The position numbers were made by a program, and so were the translations under genes. A model generated the notes under the pieces. That model did no database searches. It was not told where the DNA came from and saw only the letters and a list, made by a program, of their open reading frames with translations. This document shows, piece after piece, positions 2,876-64,000 of a DNA stretch of 64,000 nucleotides; the first letter of the stretch is position 1; the number at the start of each line of letters is the position of its first letter. The stretch is from Saccharopolyspora hordei (GTDB lineage: Bacteria > Actinomycetota > Actinomycetes > Mycobacteriales > Pseudonocardiaceae): assembly GCF_013410345.1 (NCBI RefSeq), contig NZ_JACCFJ010000001.1, positions 3,881,001-3,945,000 of the forward strand, in the 5' to 3' direction.

Positions 2876-3925
2876 GTGCGGCGCATCGACGTGGTGGTGA
2901 TCGGGGCCGGTCAGGCCGGCTTGAGCACTGCCCACCACCTGCAGCGGGCCGGTGTCGACCACGTCGTGCTCGACCGCGGGGCCGGGCCGGGCGGCGCCTG
3001 GCGGAACCGCTGGCCGTCCCTGCGGCTCGGCGGGGTGCACGGGATCCACCCGCTGCCGGGCAGCGCCCCGCCGGAGGCCGGTGACGCACGACCCGCCGCC
3101 GAGGTCGTCGCGGAGTACTTCGGGCGGTACGAGCGGGAGTTCGCGCTGCCGGTGCTGCGCCCGGTGCGGGTGGAGGCGGTCCGTGACGGCGGCGAGCGGC
3201 TGCTGGTGGAGAGCTCCGCCGGGACGTGGGCGGCGCGGGCGGTCGTCAACGCGACCGGCACGTGGGACAACCCGTTCTGGCCGCACTACCCCGGCCGGCA
3301 CCTGTTCACCGGGCGCCAGCTGCACACCGCCGACTACCGCGGGCCGGCAGAGTTCCGCGGGCAGCGGGTGGTCGTGGTCGGCGGCGGGATCTCGGCGGTG
3401 GAGCACCTGCTGGAGATCTCCGAGGTCGCCACGACGACGTGGGTGACCCGGCGGCCGCCCCGCTTCACCGGGGCGGTGTTCGGCCCGCAGGACGGGCGCG
3501 CCGCGGTCGCCGAGGTCGAGCGCCGGGTCCGGGCGGGCCTGCCGCCGGGGAGCGTGGTGAGCGCGACCGGGCTGCCGGACAGCCCCGCGGTGGTCGCGGC
3601 GCGCGAGCGCGGGGTGCTCCGCAGGGTGCCGATGTTCCAGCGGATCACCGCCGACGGTGTCGCCTGGGCCGACGGCAGCGCGCAGCGCGCCGACGTGATC
3701 CTGTGGGCCACCGGGTTCCGGCCGGCGATCGCGCACCTCGCACCGCTGGGACTGCGCGGGCCGGGAGGCGGCATCCAGCTGGACGGCACCCGCGTGGTCG
3801 CCGAACCCCGGCTGCACCTGGTCGGGTACGGGCCGTCGGCGAGCACCCTCGGCGCCAACCGGGCGGGCCGGGCCGCGGCCCGCGAGGTGCGCGCCCTGCT
3901 CGAAGCTCAAGCGAGCCTCAAGTGA
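2876..3925 (+). CDS. FAD-dependent oxidoreductase, CzcO/flavoprotein monooxygenase-like
   Basis: A 349-residue flavoprotein. The N-terminus carries the FAD-binding Rossmann motif VVVIGAGQAGLSTA (residues 6-19), and a second dinucleotide motif VVVVGGGISAVE lies near residue 166, as in NADPH-dependent monooxygenases of the CzcO/FMO group. A late ATGFRP segment matches the usual C-terminal nucleotide motif of these proteins. The start was set at GTG 2876 because the Rossmann fold begins five residues later; upstream in-frame sequence is low-complexity. It ends at a strong shared hairpin and converges with the methyltransferase gene. The substrate is unknown. Confidence 0.8.
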   Translation: MRRIDVVVIGAGQAGLSTAHHLQRAGVDHVVLDRGAGPGGAWRNRWPSLRLGGVHGIHPLPGSAPPEAGDARPAAEVVAEYFGRYEREFALPVLRPVRVEAVRDGGERLLVESSAGTWAARAVVNATGTWDNPFWPHYPGRHLFTGRQLHTADYRGPAEFRGQRVVVVGGGISAVEHLLEISEVATTTWVTRRPPRFTGAVFGPQDGRAAVAEVERRVRAGLPPGSVVSATGLPDSPAVVAARERGVLRRVPMFQRITADGVAWADGSAQRADVILWATGFRPAIAHLAPLGLRGPGGGIQLDGTRVVAEPRLHLVGYGPSASTLGANRAGRAAAREVRALLEAQASLK

Positions 3926-37669: not shown

Positions 37670-37750
37670 ATGGCACTGGGACCGCTGCTCGTGCAGCGCG
37701 CGCACATCGACCTGCTGTGGGTCGCGTCGGCGGCCTGTTCGCGCGGCTGA
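37670..37750 (+). CDS. Putative cysteine-responsive leader peptide (26 aa)
   Basis: A 26-codon ORF, leaderless by promoter position. The C-terminal half reads RAHIDLLWVASAACSRG, matching the actinobacterial leader-peptide pattern H-[IV]-D-L-L-x-x-x-x-A-x-C. It aligns without gaps over its whole length with the leader at 58408 (13 of 26 identical, including the single Cys at residue 23). Known leaders of this type sit before sulfur-metabolism genes, and ribosome stalling at the cysteine codon is thought to control the downstream gene. Here the downstream gene is a winged-helix regulator 59 bases away. Confidence 0.7.
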   Translation: MALGPLLVQRAHIDLLWVASAACSRG

Positions 37751-37809: not shown

Positions 37810-38346
37810 ATGACACCGGAAGCTGCCCGGCCGCTGGCGGCGAACTCCTTCGAGACCCGGCCCCTGCAGGACGGCGCCGTGGTCGAGGTGACCGCTCGGT
37901 TCATCGTCACCCGCCAGGACTTGGCCGCGCTGGAGCGGGTCTTCACCCCGCACGTCACCAGATCGTCCACAGTGGACGAACGGACCGCCCTGGAGGTGCC
38001 GCGGCTGCGGTCGCTGCCCTCCCCGGCCGAGCCGGTGGAACCGAAGCTGCGGATCCAGGTCGCCGCCCGGCGCGTCCTGCGCGCTGACGGCACCCCCGTG
38101 GACCTGACCCGCCTGGAGTTCGACCTGCTGCTGCACCTGTGCGAGAACCCCGGCCGGGTGCACCGGCGCACCTCGCTGCTCACCGCGGTGTGGCGCTGCA
38201 CCAGCCCGCCGAGCACCCGGACCGTGGACGTGCACGTCCGCCGGATCCGCCGCAAGCTCGGGCCCGACCTGGACCTGATCACCACGGTGCGCGGGGTCGG
38301 CTACCGGGTGGACCGGGCCGACGAGGTGCACATCGTCCGGGAGTAG
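37810..38346 (+). CDS. Winged-helix (OmpR/PhoB-type) DNA-binding regulator without a receiver domain
   Basis: A 178-residue protein (180 if GTG 37804 is used; GGAG at 37796 suits either). The last 100 residues are an OmpR-type winged helix: LTRLEFDLLLHLCENPGRV, the recognition helix region TRTVDVHVRRIRRKLG and the wing ITTVRGVGYRVD. The first 80 residues are not a phosphate receiver; they lack the Asp pocket and may bind a ligand. The leader peptide upstream suggests that its synthesis responds to cysteine, making it a candidate regulator of sulfur metabolism. That role is inference. Confidence 0.82.
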   Translation: MTPEAARPLAANSFETRPLQDGAVVEVTARFIVTRQDLAALERVFTPHVTRSSTVDERTALEVPRLRSLPSPAEPVEPKLRIQVAARRVLRADGTPVDLTRLEFDLLLHLCENPGRVHRRTSLLTAVWRCTSPPSTRTVDVHVRRIRRKLGPDLDLITTVRGVGYRVDRADEVHIVRE

Positions 38347-57333: not shown

Positions 57334-58335
57334 ATGACGGACACGGAGCCGATCCGCCTGACCCAGTACGCGCACGGTGGCGGGTGCGCGTGCAAGATCC
57401 CGCCCGGTGAACTGGAATCCGTGCTCGGCGGGTTGGCGACCGACGTGGCCGACCCCCGGGCGCAGCTGCTGGTCGGCCTGGCCACCGGCGACGACGCGGC
57501 CGTGGTGCGCGCCGACGGCGGGCCCGGGATCGTGGCCACCACGGACTTCTTCACCCCGGTGGTGGACGACCCGTACGACTGGGGCCGCATCGCGGCGGCC
57601 AACGCCCTGTCCGACGTCTACGCGATGGGCGGCACCCCGGTGGTCGCGGTGAACCTGCTCGGCTGGCCCCGCGACGTCCTGCCGTTCGAGCTGGCCGCGG
57701 AGGTGTTGCGGGGCGGCTGCGAGGTCGCCGCGGCGGCCGGGTGCCACGTCGGCGGCGGGCACAGCATCGACGACCCCGAACCCAAGTACGGCCTGGCGGT
57801 GACCGGGCTGGTGGACCCGGACCGGTTGCTGCGCAACGACACCGCGCGGCCCGGGCAGCCGCTGTCGCTGACGAAACCGCTCGGCGTCGGCGTGCTCAAC
57901 ACCCGGCACAAGCGCACGGGAGAGCGCTTCCCGCAGGCGATCGAGGCGATGACGACGCTCAACCGGGACGCCGCCGCGGCAGCGCTGCGGGCGGGCGCGG
58001 TGTGCGCCACCGACGTCACCGGGTTCGGGTTGCTCGGGCACCTGTTCAAGATGATGCGCGCCTCCGGGACCTCCGCCGAGGTCGACGTCGCCGCGGTGCC
58101 CTACCTCGACGGGGCGCGGGAGGCGGTGCGCGCGGGGTTCGTCAGCGGCGGGACGCGGCGGAACCTGGACTGGGTGCGCCCGCACCTCGACCCCGGTCCG
58201 GCTCCGGAGGAGGACCAGCTGCTGCTCGCCGACGCGCAGACCTCCGGCGGTCTGCTGGTGGTGGGCGAGGTCCCCGGCGCTCCGGTGATCGGCCGGGTGC
58301 TGCCCGCCGGGGACGCGGTGGTCGCGCTGCGCTGA
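57334..58335 (+). CDS. selD: Selenide, water dikinase (selenophosphate synthetase)
   Basis: A 333-residue AIR-synthase-fold enzyme making selenophosphate from selenide and ATP. The start IRLTQYAHGGGCACKIPPG aligns with E. coli SelD, so the catalytic pair is Cys18 and Lys21; it is a cysteine, not selenocysteine, form. TGDDAAVV binds Mg-ATP, and HVGGGHSIDDPEPKYGLAVTG is the second signature. selA, selB and a tRNA-Sec gene are not in the window. Downstream lies the leader-peptide locus of the LLM operon. Confidence 0.94.
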   Translation: MTDTEPIRLTQYAHGGGCACKIPPGELESVLGGLATDVADPRAQLLVGLATGDDAAVVRADGGPGIVATTDFFTPVVDDPYDWGRIAAANALSDVYAMGGTPVVAVNLLGWPRDVLPFELAAEVLRGGCEVAAAAGCHVGGGHSIDDPEPKYGLAVTGLVDPDRLLRNDTARPGQPLSLTKPLGVGVLNTRHKRTGERFPQAIEAMTTLNRDAAAAALRAGAVCATDVTGFGLLGHLFKMMRASGTSAEVDVAAVPYLDGAREAVRAGFVSGGTRRNLDWVRPHLDPGPAPEEDQLLLADAQTSGGLLVVGEVPGAPVIGRVLPAGDAVVALR

Positions 58336-58371
58336 GGTCGCGCCCACATCGTGGGCAGCGGCGGGTTTCCG

Positions 58372-58400
58372 TTGACGCTGCGGTGATCCGGTCCTAGCGT
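58372..58400 (+). promoter_or_regulatory. Promoter of the leader peptide and LLM monooxygenase operon
   Basis: TTGACG at 58372-58377, a 17-base spacer, TAGCGT at 58395-58400. The -10 ends seven bases before ATG 58408, which predicts a leaderless transcript starting at the leader ATG, as at 37635. Confidence 0.6.
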
Positions 58401-58407
58401 TCCACTC

Positions 58408-58488
58408 ATGGCGCATCCGGTGCAGCTGGTCACCAGGGACCACGTCGACCTCCTCCGGATCATCGCCGCCGCGTGTCCGCGGCGCTGA
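58408..58488 (+). CDS. Putative cysteine-responsive leader peptide (26 aa)
   Basis: A 26-codon ORF with C-terminal half RDHVDLLRIIAAACPRR, the actinobacterial leader pattern H-V-D-L-L-R-x-x-x-A-x-C. It is exactly as long as the leader at 37670 and shares 13 of 26 residues without gaps. Its single cysteine codon (TGT) is residue 23. The downstream genes are flavin monooxygenases of families used in organosulfur breakdown, which fits control by cysteine supply. Confidence 0.75.
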   Translation: MAHPVQLVTRDHVDLLRIIAAACPRR

Positions 58489-58491
58489 CCT

Positions 58492-58508
58492 CGCGCACCC
58501 ACCTCCCC
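58492..58508 (+). promoter_or_regulatory. C/U-rich tract after the leader stop, possible anti-Shine-Dalgarno element
   Basis: CGCGCACCCACCTCCCC begins three bases after the leader stop and is nearly the same as the tract at 37758. It could pair with GGAAGG (58555-58560) before the first monooxygenase gene. Confidence 0.5.
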
Positions 58509-58571
58509 TTCATCCACTGTGGACGAATCGTGTCCGCGGTGTCCCATGCCCGCAGGAAGGACGACCTGCAC

Positions 58572-59732
58572 ATGGCTCCACCCCACCTCCACCTGGCGGT
58601 CGCGCTCGACGGCGCGGGCTGGCACCCGGCAGCCTGGCGACGCCCGGACGCCCGCCCCGCCGACCTGTTCACCGCCCGCTACTGGGTCGACCTCGCGCAG
58701 GAAGCCGAACGCGGACTGCTCGACCTCATCACCTTCGAAGACGCCCTGGGACCGCAGTCCAGCCGCGACGACGGCCCCGACGACCGCACCGACCAGGTGC
58801 GCGGACGGCTGGACGCCAACCTCGTCGCCGCACGCGTGGCGCCGCTGACCGAGCGCGTCGGGCTGGTGCCGAGCGTCGTGGTCACGCACACCGAGCCGTT
58901 CCACGTCTCCAAGGCCATCGCCACCCTCGACCACATCAGCACCGGACGCGCCGGGTGGCAACCGCGGGTGTCCGCCCTCCCGAGCGAGGCGGCGCACTTC
59001 GGCCGCCGCGAGGTGCAGCCCGACGAACTGCTCGACGAGGCGGCCGACCACGTCGAGGTGGTGCGCCGGTTGTGGGACAGCTGGGAGGACGACGCGGAGA
59101 TCCGCGACGTCGCCACCGGCCGGTTCATCGACCGCGACAAGCTGCACCACGTCGACTTCGCCGGGAAGTGGTTCTCCGTCAAGGGACCGTCCATCACGCC
59201 CCGCCCACCGCAGGGGCAACCGCTGGTCGCCGTGCTGGCCACCGACGCGGACGAGCACCGCTTCGCCGCCCAGGCCGCGGACCTCGTGTTCACCACGCCC
59301 CACGACGTCGAGCAGGCGCGACTGGTCGAGGCCCGCATCCGCGACGAGCAGGTGCTGGCCGGCCGCGCGCACGAGGACGTCCACGTCTTCGGTGACCTCG
59401 TGGTGCACCTCGGCGCGGACGCGGCCAGCCGCAAGGCGCAGCTGGACGAGCTCGACGGCGCCGAGCACGTCCCGGACGCCCCGGTGTTCACCGGGAGCGC
59501 CGCCGAACTCGCCGACCGGTTGCAGGTCCTGGCCACCGCGGGACTCTCGGGGTTCCGGTTGCGGCCGGGGGCGGTCCCGGAAGACCTCACCGCGATCACC
59601 CGGGACCTGGTGCCGGAACTGCAACGGCGCGGGCTGTTCCGCACCTCCTACGACACCGGGTCGCTGCGCGCGCGGTTCGGCCTGCCCCGACCGGCCAGCC
59701 GCTACGCCACCACAGCGGGAGGACGACCGTGA
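58572..59732 (+). CDS. LLM-class flavin-dependent monooxygenase
   Basis: A 386-residue luciferase-like TIM-barrel enzyme: HLHLAVALDGAGWHPAAWR at the start, DLITFEDALGPQ, and PSVVVTHTEPFHVSKAIATL, the FMN-site strand of the NtaA/SnaA/DszA-related group. It needs reduced FMN from a separate reductase, not present here. First gene after the leader; its stop overlaps the next start (GTGA). A role in oxygenating an organosulfur compound is inferred from the leader and the neighbours. Confidence 0.85.
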   Translation: MAPPHLHLAVALDGAGWHPAAWRRPDARPADLFTARYWVDLAQEAERGLLDLITFEDALGPQSSRDDGPDDRTDQVRGRLDANLVAARVAPLTERVGLVPSVVVTHTEPFHVSKAIATLDHISTGRAGWQPRVSALPSEAAHFGRREVQPDELLDEAADHVEVVRRLWDSWEDDAEIRDVATGRFIDRDKLHHVDFAGKWFSVKGPSITPRPPQGQPLVAVLATDADEHRFAAQAADLVFTTPHDVEQARLVEARIRDEQVLAGRAHEDVHVFGDLVVHLGADAASRKAQLDELDGAEHVPDAPVFTGSAAELADRLQVLATAGLSGFRLRPGAVPEDLTAITRDLVPELQRRGLFRTSYDTGSLRARFGLPRPASRYATTAGGRP

Positions 59733-61096
59733 CCAAGCAGATCCACCTCGCCGCGCACTTCCCCGGCGTCAACAACACCACCGTGTGGAGCGATCCCCGG
59801 TCGCAGAGCCAGATCGCGTTCTCCTCGTTCGTGCACCTGGCCCGCACCGCCGAGCGCGCCGGGTTCGACTTCCTGTTCCTGGCCGAGGGACTGCGGTTGC
59901 GCGAACAGGGCGGCAAGATCTACGACCTGGACGTGGTGGGCCGCCCGGACACCTTCACCGTGCTGGCCGCCTTGGCCGCCGTCACCGAGCACCTGGGGCT
60001 GGCCGGCACCATCAGCTCGACGTTCAACGAACCCTACGAGGTGGCGCGGCAGTTCGCCAGCCTCGACCACCTCTCCGGTGGCCGGGCCGCCTGGAACGTG
60101 GTGACCTCGTGGGACACCTTCACCGGGGAGAACTTCCGGCGCGGCGGCTTCCTGCCCGAGGAGCAGCGCTACGAGCGCGCCGAGCGGTTCCTGCGCACCG
60201 CGTGCGAGCTGTTCGACTCCTGGCGCGGCGACGAGGTCGTCACCGACAAGGAGACCGGCACGTTCCTCACCGACCCGCGCGCCGGGTCGTTCGCGCACCG
60301 GGACGCGCACTTCGACATCAGCGGCCGGTTCACCGTCCCCCGCAGCCCGCAGGGCCGACCGGTGATCTTCCAGGCCGGCGATTCCGACGCGGGCCGGGAG
60401 TTCGCCGCCTCCGCCGCCGACGCGATCTTCACCAGGCACGGGACCTTCCGCGCCGGCAAGGAGTTCTACGCCGACGTCAAGCGGCGGCTGCCCAAGCACG
60501 GGCGCTCCCGCGACGAGCTGCTGGTGTTCCCGGCGACGACCGTGGTGCTCGGGGACACCGACGCCGAAGCGCACGAGCACGCCGCGCACATCCGGCGCCA
60601 GCAGGTCAGCGGGCAGACCGCGGTCCGGTTCCTGGAGCAGGTCTGGAACCGCGACCTCAGCGACCTCGACCCGGACGGCCCGCTGCCGGAGTTCGACCCG
60701 GTCCCGGGCGAGAACACCATCGCGAAGGGGCGCGCCAGCACGCGACAGCACCGCGACCCGATCGCCGTCGCCCGCCAGTGGCGGGAGCTGGCCCAGGCCA
60801 AGGGGTTGTCGGTGCGGGAGCTGGTCATCGAGGTGACCGCCCGCCAGTCGTTCATCGGCACCCCGGAGACCGTGGCGGCGGAGATGGACCGGTTCGTGCA
60901 GGAGGACGCCTGCGACGGCTTCATCCTCGTCCCGCACCTCACCCCGGGCGGCCTCGACGACTTCGCCGAGACCGTGGTGCCGCTGCTGCAGGAGCGCGGC
61001 GTGCACCGCACCGAGTACACCGGCGGCACGCTGCGCGAGAACCTCGGTCTGCCGCCGCTGCCCGCCCCGCGGCACCGCGAGAGGACCGCGTCATGA
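59729..61096 (+). CDS. NtaA/DmoA-family FMN-dependent monooxygenase
   Basis: A 455-residue LLM monooxygenase of the nitrilotriacetate/dimethylsulfide/dibenzothiophene-sulfone group: [20 protein letters not shown] at the start, then [31 protein letters not shown] and [20 protein letters not shown], the family signatures. It would use FMNH2 and oxygen to cleave a C-S or C-N bond. Translationally coupled to the preceding gene. Confidence 0.9.
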
Positions 61097-61112: not shown

Positions 61113-62303
61113 ATGCCCACCCCGCTCTCGGTCCTCGACCTCGCACCGATCCCCTCGGGCGGGACGGCGTCGGACGCGCTGCGCAACACCCTGGACCTCG
61201 CGCGGCGCGCCGAGCAGCTCGGCTACCGGCGCTACTGGGTCGCCGAGCACCACCTCACGCCGGGCGTCGCCTCGGCGGCGCCTGCCGTGCTCATCGCGCT
61301 CATCTCCGGGGCCACCAGCCGGATCCGGGTCGGCTCGGCAGCCGTGCTGCTGGGCCACCACTCACCGCTGGTGGTGGCCGAGGAGTTCGGCACCATCGCC
61401 CACCTGCACCCGGGCCGGGTGGACCTGGGCCTGGGCCGGGTCGCCTCGAACCGCGCCGCCGACCTGGCGCGCCGCTTCGCCGAGGGCGTCGGCGCGCCGT
61501 CGCGGGTCGTCGACGGCCTGCTGGTCCCGGCGAAGCCGAAGGGCCTGGCCAGGTCGGAGGCGCAGCTGGCGCGCATCGCCGAGCAGCAGCGGCTGGTCGG
61601 CAGGCCGGTGGAGGGGCTGGACTACCGCACCCAGGTCGGCCAGGTCCTGCAGTACGTCACCGGCGGGCTCCGCGACAGCGCGGGCGAGCCGCTGCACGCC
61701 CAGCCGGCGGAGGGCGCGGACCTCGACGTCTGGGTGCTGGGCTCCAGCGCCGGGGAGAGCTCGGCGACCGCGGGAGCGCTGGGCCTGCCGTACGCGGCCA
61801 ACTACCACGTCAGCCCGTCCACCGTGCTGGAGTCGGTGTCGTCCTACCGGGACGGTTTCACCGCCTCGACCCGGTTGGCGCGGCCGTACGTGGCGGTCTC
61901 GGCGGACGTGGTGGTCGCCGGCACCGACGAGGCGGCCCGCGAGCTGGCCGCCCCCCACGCGCGGTGGGTGCACAGCATCCGCGCCGGGGCGGGCGCGATC
62001 CCGTACCCCAGCCCGGCGGAGGCGGCCGCGTTCCCGTGGACCGACCAGGACCGGGAGCTGGTGGCCGACCGGGTGGCCACCCAGTTCGTGGGCGCGCCGG
62101 AGACGGTGGTGCGCGGGCTGGCGACGCTGCGCGACGTCACCGGGGCCGACGAGCTGGTGGTCACCACGATCACCCACGACCACGCCGACCGGGTGCGGTC
62201 CTACGAGCTGCTCGCCGAGGCCTGGCAGGCGTCAGCCGCGGCCGATGAAGGGCATGGCGGTGGCGGTGATGGTGAGGAACTGGACGTTCGCCGACAGCGG
62301 TAG
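61113..62303 (+). CDS. LLM-class flavin oxidoreductase, MsnO8/luciferase group 1 type
   Basis: A 396-residue enzyme with the start [33 protein letters not shown] and [12 protein letters not shown], typical of the TIGR03558-like group. GGAGG lies nine bases before ATG 61113. The last 20 or so residues (after ELLAEAWQ) are Gly/Glu-rich and run 72 bases into the antisense end of the SDR gene, so the natural stop may have been lost. Third gene of the leader-controlled operon. Confidence 0.87.
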
Positions 62304-62747
62304 CCCGGCCATGTAGAGCACGGCCTCGGCGACGTGCCGCGCGTCGAAGGTGGGTTCCGGGCGGACCGTGCCGTCCGCCTGGGCCGCGCCGGTGGCGATG
62401 CCCGCGGTCATCTCGGTGGCGGCGTTGCCGATGTCGATCTGCCCGCAGGCGATGTCGTACGGGCGGCCGTCCAGCGAGATCGACTTGGTCAGGCCGGTGA
62501 TCGCGTGCTTGGTCGCGGTGTAGGCGACGCTGCGTGGCCGCGGGCTGTGCGCGGAGATCGAACCGTTGTTGATGATCCGCCCGCCCTGCGGGCGCTGCTC
62601 CTTCATGACGCGGAAGGCCTGCTGCGCGCAGAGGAACGAGCCGGTGAGGTTGACCTGCACGGCGGCCTGCCAGTCCGCGGGCGACAGCTCGCCGACGTCC
62701 CCGGCCGTGCCGAAGGTGCCCGCGTTGTTCACCAGCAGGCTCGGGTT
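62232..62747 (-). pseudogene. Short-chain dehydrogenase, 5' part removed by an IS30-family insertion
   Basis: The remaining C-terminal part of an [12 protein letters not shown] (the mid-domain NNAG motif), [22 protein letters not shown] with the Ser-Tyr-Lys catalytic residues, and the end [15 protein letters not shown]. The frame is intact back to codons for [10 protein letters not shown] and then meets TAG at 62748-62750, exactly where the IS sequence begins. The first 80 or so residues, including the nucleotide-binding glycines, are missing and may lie beyond the element. It is not functional as it stands; ATG 62732 could start only a truncated product. Confidence 0.8.
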
Positions 62748-62759
62748 CTAGCGGTGGTT

Positions 62760-62786
62760 GCAACGCCTGATTTGTTCAGGGGTTGC
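62760..62786 (+). promoter_or_regulatory. Stem-loop near the IS left end, before the transposase start
   Basis: Arms GCAACGCCTGA (62760-62770) and TCAGGGGTTGC (62776-62786), one mismatch, loop TTTGT. It ends two bases before the GTG start and may limit translation or read-through into the transposase. Confidence 0.5.
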
Positions 62787-62787
62787 G

Positions 62788-64000
62788 GTGTTCGAGATCC
62801 GTCAGGACAGGTCGCCTCAGGGGTGTAAGAAGTTGCTTGCTGAGCGCGAGGTCTATTTTGATCTTGTGGCGCGGGGTGTGGGCACGGTTGAGGCATGCCG
62901 GATCGTGGGGGTCAGCCGCACGACCGGGTATCGGTGGCGATTCGGCCGACGGGCGGGGCGTGGGACCACGTGTTCTTGCGCCCCGCCGTCACCTCCGGCT
63001 CGTGCCCGGCCCGAGGTGTCGTCCCGGTTTTTGTCTCAGGACGAGCGGCTGGTGATCGCTGACCTGCGTCGGGCCGGCCTGGGTGTGCGGGCCATCGCAG
63101 GCGAGCTGGGGCGTGATCCTGGCACGATCAGCCGGGAGCTGCGGCGCAACAGTCATCCCGGTAGCGGTGACTACCGGCCCTATGCCGCTCAGGCTCGCGC
63201 CGAGGCGCGCCGCGCCCGGCCGAAGACCGGCAAGATCGCCGCCCATCCCGAATTGCGTGAACGGGTGCAGGGCATGCTCGACGACCGGTACAGCCCGGAG
63301 CAGATCAGCCATCGGCTGCGCCGGGACCATCCCGACCGCCCGGAGCTGCACGTGACCCACGAGACGATCTACCAGGCCCTTTATGTCCAAGGTCGCGGCG
63401 GACTGCGTCGTGAACTGGCCCGGGCGCTGCGCACCGGCCGTACGGTGCGCCGACCCCGCCGGACCACCGAGCAACGCCAGTCCCGCTTCACCGCACCGAT
63501 GCTGATGATCAGCGACCGCCCGGCCGAGGTCGCGGACCGGGCCGTGCCCGGCCACTGGGAAGGTGACCTGATCCTCGGTGCCGGCGGGGCATCCGCGATC
63601 GGCACACTGGTCGAGCGCACCACCCGCTACGTGCTGCTGGTCCACCTGCCAGAACGACACGACGCCGAAACCGTCCGCGACGGCCTCATCACCACCATCC
63701 AGACACTGCCCACCCACCTGAAACGGTCCCTGACCTGGGACCAAGGCGCTGAGATGAGCCGCCACCACGAGTTCACCCTCGCCACCAACATCCCGGTCTA
63801 CTTCTGCGACCCTCACTCGCCCTGGCAACGCGGCAGCAACGAAAACACCAACGGCCTGCTCCGCCAGTACTTCCCCAAAGGCAGCGACCTCTCTGTCCAC
63901 ACCCCCGACGACCTCGCCGCCGTCGCCGCCCAACTCAACCGCCGACCACGCAAAACGCTCGGCTGGGACACCCCAGCCGAGCGCCTGACTAAACTCCTGA
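62788..64000 (+). CDS. IS30-family transposase, last residues beyond the right edge
   Basis: An open frame from GTG 62788 to the window end (404 codons). N-terminal helix-turn-helix segments: LVARGVGTVEACRIVGVSRT and LRRAGLGVRAIAGELGRDPG with TISRELRRN. The DDE catalytic residues are Asp in GHWEGDLILG, Asp in SLTWDQGAEM and Glu in QRGSNENTNGLLRQYFPKG, the IS30 spacing. The end TPAERLTKLL is the usual IS30 C-terminus, so only a few residues are missing. Likely active by sequence. Confidence 0.93.
   Translation, partial: MFEIRQDRSPQGCKKLLAEREVYFDLVARGVGTVEACRIVGVSRTTGYRWRFGRRAGRGTTCSCAPPSPPARARPEVSSRFLSQDERLVIADLRRAGLGVRAIAGELGRDPGTISRELRRNSHPGSGDYRPYAAQARAEARRARPKTGKIAAHPELRERVQGMLDDRYSPEQISHRLRRDHPDRPELHVTHETIYQALYVQGRGGLRRELARALRTGRTVRRPRRTTEQRQSRFTAPMLMISDRPAEVADRAVPGHWEGDLILGAGGASAIGTLVERTTRYVLLVHLPERHDAETVRDGLITTIQTLPTHLKRSLTWDQGAEMSRHHEFTLATNIPVYFCDPHSPWQRGSNENTNGLLRQYFPKGSDLSVHTPDDLAAVAAQLNRRPRKTLGWDTPAERLTKLL

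Follow-up and report, generated by a model that had tools for sequence, protein, structure and literature searches.

A probable cysteine leader peptide upstream of a three-gene oxygenase operon in Saccharopolyspora hordei and a position-specific TGT codon in its family

Cysteine leaders are already known from actinobacteria, as described in Seliverstov 2005 (PMC1262725) and Shell et al. 2015 (PMC4633059). A locus of Saccharopolyspora hordei raises the question of whether a 26-codon open reading frame (ORF), placed between a promoter-like sequence and three consecutive LLM monooxygenase genes (LLM1, LLM2, and LLM3), is a leader of this kind, and how a leader with one Cys codon could sense cysteine. 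The locus lies in a stretch of 64,000 nucleotides (contig NZ_JACCFJ010000001.1, positions 3,881,001 to 3,945,000), hereafter called the window, and coordinates at the locus are those of the window. Our results suggest that the ORF is probably a cis-acting cysteine leader, in which a ribosome pausing at UGU codon 23 when Cys-tRNA is short would raise expression of the operon. The kind of leader is known; the family-wide codon signature reported here is one that we have not seen described, and our literature search, made mostly without subscription papers, found among the entries listed no report of the TGT rule or of a leader of this operon.

An earlier, sequence-only reading had named a promoter, a leader ORF, a pyrimidine tract, and a ribosome-binding site at this locus, and direct reading together with a scripted re-check placed all of them where they had been said to be. 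The following elements were read from the sequence.

58372-58377, plus strand: -35 hexamer TTGACG, followed by a 17-nt spacer.
58395-58400, plus strand: -10 hexamer TAGCGT, 7 nt 5' of the ATG at 58408-58410.
58408-58488, plus strand: putative leader peptide gene MAHPVQLVTRDHVDLLRIIAAACPRR, 26 codons ending in AACPRR plus the stop codon TGA at 58486-58488.
58474-58476, plus strand: codon 23, TGT, the Cys codon of the motif and the proposed sensing codon.
58489-58554, plus strand: C-rich spacer from the leader stop to the ribosome site, with a C/(C+G) of 0.67 over the initial 60 nt.
58555-58560, plus strand: GGAAGG, ribosome-binding site of LLM1, whose ATG is at 58572.

The leader has a single Cys codon among its 26 and no Cys run, and the C/U-rich stretch CCTCGCGCACCCACCTCCCCTTCATCC begins at 58489, directly 3' of the stop codon. 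A pattern combining promoter and start, TTGAC-N17..19-TAnnnT-N6..8-[AG]TG, had one match in the window, namely, this site on the plus strand, and none in 100 order-1 shuffles of the window scanned on both strands. Our search rules returned no strict sigma-70 site in 58300-58700, and no Rfam 15 match above the gathering score was obtained in the window.

A peptide search of 22 Saccharopolyspora genomes gave a match in 18 and clear orthologues in 16, the S. hordei genome included. TTGACG was present in 16/16 orthologues; the -10 hexamer was TAGCGT in 13, TAGCTT in 2, and TAACTT in 1, always 6 to 7 nt before the ATG, and the sequence between the two hexamers diverged. This fixed distance between the -10 hexamer and the ATG in all 16 orthologues supports a leaderless start. 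The gene read from the downstream start was LLM1 in 15 of the 16, and the ribosome site, where it was located (13 orthologues), was GGAAGG in 10 and GGGAGG in 3. In one genome (G404, locus L348) the orthologous leader and promoter precede a gene starting MTTLSRRQVLRGGLL, not LLM1, and this gene presumably encodes an exported binding protein; from this case, leaders seem to move between genes.

For assignment to a family, two curated profiles were considered: NF042934 (cis_reg_atten, "putative leader peptide"; cut-off, 27 bits) and NF042936 ("Ms4527A family Cys-rich leader peptide"; cut-off, 45). Positions 3 to 19 of the NF042934 profile align to residues 7 to 23 of the window peptide, giving the same core in the same register. 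Against NF042936, the window peptide reached 17 bits (E 0.0033), below the cut-off. The orthologue in genome G112, MAQSVQLVTRDHVDLLRVTSAACPRH, scored 28.0 bits against NF042934 and thus exceeded its cut-off, and two other genus orthologues scored 21.8 and 16.7 bits; leaders before the same operon elsewhere scored 27.6 bits (Pseudonocardia) and 32.8 to 42.0 bits (three from Streptomyces). In VTRDHVDLLRIIAAAC, the window leader has Asp at codon 14, within the R-x-H-[VI]-D-L-x-R core, and Cys at codon 23, a distance of nine codons; the Asp-to-Cys spacing is a pattern from this analysis and not an official criterion of NF042934. Many members of NF042934 end in xxSALCR, whereas the window copy ends in IIAAACPRR. 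On these comparisons, the window ORF appears to be a divergent relative of NF042934, tied to it by orthology, and we do not call it a member. The family relation, the promoter kept in 16 of the 22 genus genomes, and the sulfur-linked paralogues described below support the earlier proposal of a cysteine-type leader like those of other actinobacteria, and the leaderless start that it assumed is probable.

The codon that the sequence-only reading had singled out, codon 23, corresponds to the most conserved codon of the leader family. We read 143 leaders, comprising 33 from LLM1 loci, 15 others from the S. hordei genome, and 95 taken by amino-acid profile from class- and phylum-wide samples; the leaders of L137 and L143, identical to those of L056 and L095 (both TGT), were excluded, and the class-sample rows omit those of the S. 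hordei genome and some near contig ends. The motif Cys codon was TGT in 142 of the 143 and TGC in one, a count in which the 95 sampled leaders are the best-scoring matches, so that weaker leaders could hold more exceptions. Other Cys codons in the same leaders were TGC in 109 cases and TGT in 25 (Fisher 4e-51, a value that is descriptive only, as the leaders are related and some genomes may coincide with named loci). Coding sequence likewise favored TGC, with 197 TGC and 15 TGT in ORFs near the S. hordei leaders and 119 and 18, respectively, around 35 sampled leaders. Of 21 further leaders from LLM1 loci, 19 had TGT and one had TGC, and the remaining one had Ser. In the order, Ms5788A-type leaders had TGT at the motif position in 28/28 assigned cases, with TGC in 24/24 at -7 and 18/20 at -2 (30 loci read, the mislocated L321 and L329, which lacks the Asp, excluded; four of the 28 overlap the 143).

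The position of this codon was as constant as its identity. Asp stood nine codons before the Cys in 143/143 leaders; it had been used to locate the Cys in 48 of them, and the observation was independent in the other 95/95. The distance from Cys to stop ranged from 0 to 18 codons. The base following the motif codon was G in 0 of 83 and then 1 of 60 leaders; at position 1 of the two codons after that, counted in the 83, the G fractions were 0.23 and 0.17. At neighboring conserved codons the third base varied (Asp, 111 GAC and 32 GAT; Leu, 88 G, 45 C, and 5 others). When the count began 12 codons ahead of the motif Cys, 67 of the 143 leaders had a single Cys codon.

Among 50 tRNA matches in the S. 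hordei genome, there was one tRNA-Cys, with anticodon GCA. Because this was the sole tRNA-Cys found, UGU should be read by wobble and slowly. The tRNA modification ms2i6A37 is a thiolation and is a candidate for an added sulfur signal; MiaB is present in the genome, which permits such a signal and gives no support for it. In a leader-based assay, NNC was translated faster in most NNU/NNC pairs (PMC4046918). Taken together, the codon data suggest that TGT nine codons after the Asp is a wobble-read sensing codon held in a fixed register.

Three other explanations of the TGT were considered and set aside. A local RNA fold needing the U was rejected: the U was mostly unpaired in 59/128 leaders, and the mean shift in ensemble energy on replacing it with C was -0.32 kcal/mol, with C more stable in 79/128. 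Selective charging of isoacceptors, for which a theory exists (PMC1183508), is inapplicable with one tRNA-Cys (GCA) in the genome. Shared descent is unlikely, as neighboring conserved codons vary in their third base.

Related leaders were also found in front of LLM1 in other genera. The 600 nt upstream of LLM1 were scored in 110 loci (the best 80 of 592 plus the best 30 from a search of the taxonomic family, in which 63 of 150 genomes matched) using a matrix derived from the other 15 S. hordei leaders, the window leader excluded. The window ORF scored 28.0, and the best of 1100 shuffled upstream regions scored 11.5. A leader was present in 35/110 loci with scores of 20 to 50, the remaining loci scoring 6.7 or less; the named positive genera were Saccharopolyspora, Streptomyces, Kitasatospora, Actinacidiphila, Frankia, Protofrankia, and Pseudonocardia. 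As a control, the opposite strand of these regions was scored and had a 95% quantile of 3.2 and a maximum of 38.8; this maximum was taken for a real leader, because opposite-strand leaders were found in several loci (for example L088, 39.3). Seven loci (L064, L085, L086, L088, L093, L067, and L108) carry two leaders, on the same or opposite strands; those of L064 (Streptomyces sp. CB01635) are at 3133 and 3853, and the second leader of L067 has TGC. A script scan left most Streptomyces loci without convincing hexamers at a leaderless distance, and in L062, L066, L067, and L078 a Shine-Dalgarno-like GAGGTG lies six bases before the chosen leader start. The leader is therefore possibly leadered in these Streptomyces loci and leaderless in Saccharopolyspora, and the leaderless start may be limited to the taxonomic family of the latter.

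The S. hordei genome itself holds about 16 credible leaders, as judged from NF042934 profile, peptide, and NF042936 searches; the NF042934 profile alone gave seven places over its cut-off plus weaker ones, and 14 control genomes gave some weak match in 10 and none over the cut-off. By best match, 9 of the other 15 leaders precede sulfur-related genes: a sulfite/nitrite reductase relative with CysN downstream; SsuC/SsuA relatives; another SsuA; SsuE; an SsuD relative; an O-acetylhomoserine/O-acetylserine sulfhydrylase; DUF4395 with a sulfurtransferase relative; TauE/SafE; and cysteine dioxygenase. CysN, the second SsuA, SsuE, and the sulfhydrylase exceed NCBIfam cut-offs, and DUF4395, TauE, and cysteine dioxygenase exceed those of Pfam; the reductase, SsuC, the first SsuA, SsuD, and the sulfurtransferase fall below NCBIfam cut-offs. 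The other six contexts are an MFS transporter, a dicarboxylate-type symporter, an amino-acid permease with DsbA, a winged-helix protein, and two unassigned genes. The winged-helix context is in the window, where the second leader of the family is found.

37670-37750, plus strand: second family leader MALGPLLVQRAHIDLLWVASAACSRG, Cys codon TGT, 22.7 bits against NF042934 (below cut-off), preceded by TTGACG-17-TTTGAT-6-ATG.

This leader precedes a small gene (37810-38346) with a winged-helix (Trans_reg_C) domain, whose product is perhaps a regulator under cysteine control. Beyond S. hordei, a leader over the cut-off at E 2e-5 or better was present in 77 of 118 genomes of a class-wide sample, and a phylum-wide sample gave 5 of 100 genomes at E 1e-4, all inside the class (S. 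hordei included in both counts).

What the leader would control is a set of three closely spaced genes, each above its profile cut-off, so that the earlier statement of three LLM monooxygenase genes following the leader stands. That their products act on organosulfur compounds is plausible.

58572-59732, plus strand: LLM1, NtaA/DmoA-family FMN-dependent monooxygenase, TIGR03860, 284.1 bits (cut-off, 279.7).
59729-61096, plus strand: LLM2, NtaA/DmoA-family FMN-dependent monooxygenase, TIGR03860, 417.5 bits; its first 4 nt lie within LLM1.
61113-62303, plus strand: LLM3, MsnO8-family LLM oxidoreductase, TIGR03558, 325.4 bits (cut-off, 166.95).

The nearest solved relatives are DszA (5tlc; E 3.6e-50) for LLM1, YtnJ/MoxC (1yw1, 6ask, and 1tvl; E about 1e-83) for LLM2, and 4us5 (E 2.7e-47), which we take to be MsnO8, for LLM3; YtnJ is presumably the same protein as CmoJ. 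The closest named relatives of LLM1, among the best 80 of 592, are those of S. kobensis and S. hirsuta, with 85% identity. CmoJ, a homologue of YxeK and DszA, is described as salvaging cysteine from S-alkylcysteine (PMC10863075), and YxeK as taking N-acetyl-S-(2-succino)cysteine as its substrate within a cysteine-yielding pathway (PMC9706529). The operon resembles the Bacillus CmoO/CmoJ and YxeK salvage systems in that YtnJ/MoxC are the nearest solved relatives of LLM2, and differs from CmoO/CmoJ in that LLM3 matches the MsnO8 family, with no assignment as CmoO. An operon for S-alkylcysteine salvage of the CmoO/CmoJ kind would combine a CmoJ-type monooxygenase with an acetyltransferase and a deacetylase as partners. 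Judging from these homologies, the oxygenases probably serve to recover sulfur, or cysteine, from organosulfur compounds, whether alkylated or of another type, the substrate class being suggested by the relatives.

The immediate surroundings include several further features. A 333-amino-acid gene on the plus strand (57334-58335), presumably a selenophosphate synthase (SelD) judging from its motif, stops 72 nt short of the leader ATG, in the same orientation, and transcription may read through from it into the leader. Just past the operon, a short-chain dehydrogenase ORF (62232-62732, minus strand), matching only positions 82 to 190 of a 195-position Pfam profile, adjoins a transposase-like ORF (62758-63999, plus strand) whose motif we take to be IS30-like. 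Between the leader stop and the ribosome site lies a hairpin (58515-58541; GTGGACG-loop-TGTCCGC), seemingly kept, by eye, with pair-preserving changes in L056, L057, and L138 (in the last as GTGGACA-GTCG-TGTCCAC); TCCACTGTGGA in this region is a palindrome at the DNA level too.

From the computed family relationship, promoter geometry, position-specific UGU, and sulfur-gene context of the paralogues, we infer a leaderless start, a pause, a direction of response, and a substrate class. Transcription would start at or within one or two bases of the leader ATG, as the fixed distance from the -10 hexamer suggests, and the ribosome would initiate at the 5' end of the mRNA. The R-x-H-[VI]-D-L-x-R stretch would then occupy the exit tunnel as the sole UGU, nine codons past the Asp, enters the A site, where the GCA tRNA-Cys would read it through a G.U wobble and hence slowly. 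A shortage of Cys-tRNA would make the ribosome pause there and increase expression of the oxygenase operon, whether by exposing the ribosome site, by keeping Rho from ending transcription within the C-rich spacer, or through translational coupling.

Whether the ORF is translated at all, and what would make the ribosome pause, are the first points on which other readings differ. The ORF is short and lies below a curated cut-off, as would be expected of a chance frame behind a promoter that is itself the only conserved feature; yet frame, peptide, and stop are kept in 16 genus genomes, related leaders precede the same gene in other genera, and among 11 distinct 26-codon genus sequences there are 166 synonymous against 210 nonsynonymous codon differences over all pairs, with residues 8 to 17 (VTRDHVDLLR) invariant, so that we regard a chance frame as highly improbable. 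Another reading is that of an arrest peptide, in which the nascent chain R-x-H-[VI]-D-L-x-R-V-x-S-[AL] pauses the ribosome, the UGU sets the place, and the signal is maybe not the charging of Cys-tRNA. The Asp-to-Cys distance is fixed (in all 95 independent leaders) while the distance to the stop is free; R, D, L, and V are conserved with free third bases, unlike the motif Cys codon; and the many one-Cys leaders have few Cys codons for an attenuator driven purely by starvation. However, an invariant Cys in the set fits amino-acid sensing, and the sulfur-related genes behind 9 of the 15 paralogues point the same way, which leaves an arrest peptide a doubtful account of the locus.

Two schemes were considered for the step after the pause. 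In a scheme of translational attenuation, leader codons 13 to 18 (around CUCCUCCGG) would pair with and hide the AGGAAGGA region, and a ribosome paused at codon 23 would block the pairing. Folding of the window RNA with and without a leader ribosome, as the sequence-only reading had proposed, did predict exposure of the six-base ribosome site (unpaired 0.27 when free versus 0.67 with the ribosome), its pairing with the leader exceeded that of 92% of 60 synonymous recodings, two closely similar genus orthologues (L352 and L353) behaved like the window, and codons 15 to 17 are synonymously invariant among the 11 distinct genus sequences; moreover, a paper citing Canestrari 2020 states that the cysteine genes of M. 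smegmatis are regulated by translation attenuation (PMC13236596). The predicted effect is not conserved, however. Hiding of the site was absent from the predictions for 10 of 13 genus orthologues (15 were given, two lacking a located site or gene), and across 27 LLM1 loci (of 31 submitted, the rest lacking a ribosome site that could be placed) the mean unpaired fraction was 0.26 in the native RNA, 0.26 with the leader removed, and 0.27 after recoding, the native value being below the leader-removed one in 9/27. The prediction for the leader of genome G129 was unstable, sequestering in L138 (0.26 versus 0.63) and not in L349 (leader pairing 0.00), where the RNA ends differ, and for the window RNA, placing the ribosome at the stop codon exposed the site as much as placing it at codon 23 (0.67 for both). 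The earlier claim, that stalling makes the ribosome site of the next gene accessible, thus finds no backing as a conserved feature (3 of 13 orthologues in the predictions, no effect over the 27 loci), and we consider translational attenuation of this form unlikely. Under Rho-dependent termination, a cysteine-replete ribosome would leave at the stop codon and Rho would load on the C-rich, G-poor spacer, a paused ribosome permitting read-through. C exceeded G in the 60 nt after the leader stop in 122/128 leaders (mean C/(C+G), 0.61), compared with 54/75 (mean, 0.54) upstream of LLM1 in leader-free loci, a rough control that is partly coding, and 58300-58700 contained no intrinsic terminator-like site of the sort that a classical transcription attenuator would have; for mycobacterial cys leaders with pyrimidine tracts, Rho has been suggested in a prediction termed rather weak (Seliverstov et al. 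2005, PMC1262725). Among the 33 leaders from LLM1 loci, however, the C bias was present in the first 30 nt (32/33), gone in the second 30 (17/33), and present again beyond 60 nt; a ribosome with codon 23 in its A site would reach only to about the stop codon and leave the spacer uncovered; and the bias could merely keep the spacer unfolded. The spacer composition suits Rho and is no demonstration of it, and termination by Rho is a possibility that we hold only tentatively, as one of limited likelihood.

Several results weigh against a cysteine leader sensing through codon 23, among them the folding comparisons across genus orthologues and LLM1 loci just described. The window peptide scores 16.1 bits (E 0.0066) against NF042934, below its cut-off. 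The mycobacterial leaders studied by experiment are described as polycysteine, with a run of Cys codons, whereas the present leader has one. The sole TGC exception among the 143 leaders (L042, at genome positions 5088229-5088285) lies in the S. hordei genome itself, before the sulfite/nitrite reductase relative, and two of the 16 leaders there are weak, G_2662k having no in-frame ATG, GTG, or TTG and P_1781k having been found by the peptide search only (E 0.54). No leader was found within 600 nt upstream in 75/110 LLM1 loci, although of the 52 named loci among these, 13 carry a leader in another part of the locus, both strands considered. Finally, codons 15 to 17 read CTC CTC CGG in 11/11 distinct 26-codon genus sequences (a 25-codon group has CTG first), and this synonymous constraint outside the Cys codon may reflect an RNA-level role in the genus leaders.

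The probable cysteine leader proposed here would extend the list of operons carrying a cysteine-type leader to an oxygenase operon of the organosulfur type, found so in Saccharopolyspora and in some of the examined loci from Streptomyces and other genera, with one genome using about 16 such leaders, two of them inside the window. TGT nine codons after the Asp offers a codon-level criterion for leaders that fall below profile cut-offs, the window leader included. We further speculate, with rather less confidence than for the leader itself and at somewhat worse than even chances, that actinobacterial cysteine leaders share a hybrid of arrest peptide and starvation sensor, in which a wobble-read UGU, rarely followed by G, keeps a constant spacing to a nascent-chain motif, so that one Cys codon would suffice to sense cysteine or a sulfur-dependent modification of tRNA-Cys. 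If true, such a device would be used by many operons of one genome, the oxygenase operon included; should a change of TGT to TGC alone remove the response, the question of one-codon cysteine sensing would become open to a direct answer.

Among known systems, the mycobacterial polycysteine short ORFs Ms5788A and Ms4527A (NF042933 and NF042936) are similar to the present leader in lying directly 5' of sulfur genes, in having Cys near the end, and in being leaderless, as the present one appears to be; with Ms5788A-type leaders it also shares the position of the TGT. In the mycobacterial polycysteine leaders, which are cysteine-responsive attenuators, according to Canestrari et al. 2020 an mRNA structure reportedly hides the downstream ribosome site. 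Eight leader peptides have been catalogued in S. lividans, none with the present core (PMC8079986). The Rhodobacterales cysS leader uORFC-8-2 is likewise a cysteine upstream ORF, proposed to sense the charging of tRNA-Cys, and differs in its two tandem Cys codons, the dominance of UGC, and a putative intrinsic terminator (PMC8632094). The candidate cys leaders described by Seliverstov et al. 2005 for Mycobacterium, P. acnes, and B. longum contain several Cys codons in a run and stand before cys or cbs genes, whereas in their Cys near the stop, the absence of a terminator hairpin, and a pyrimidine-tract spacer they are like the leader of the S. hordei oxygenase operon (PMC1262725).

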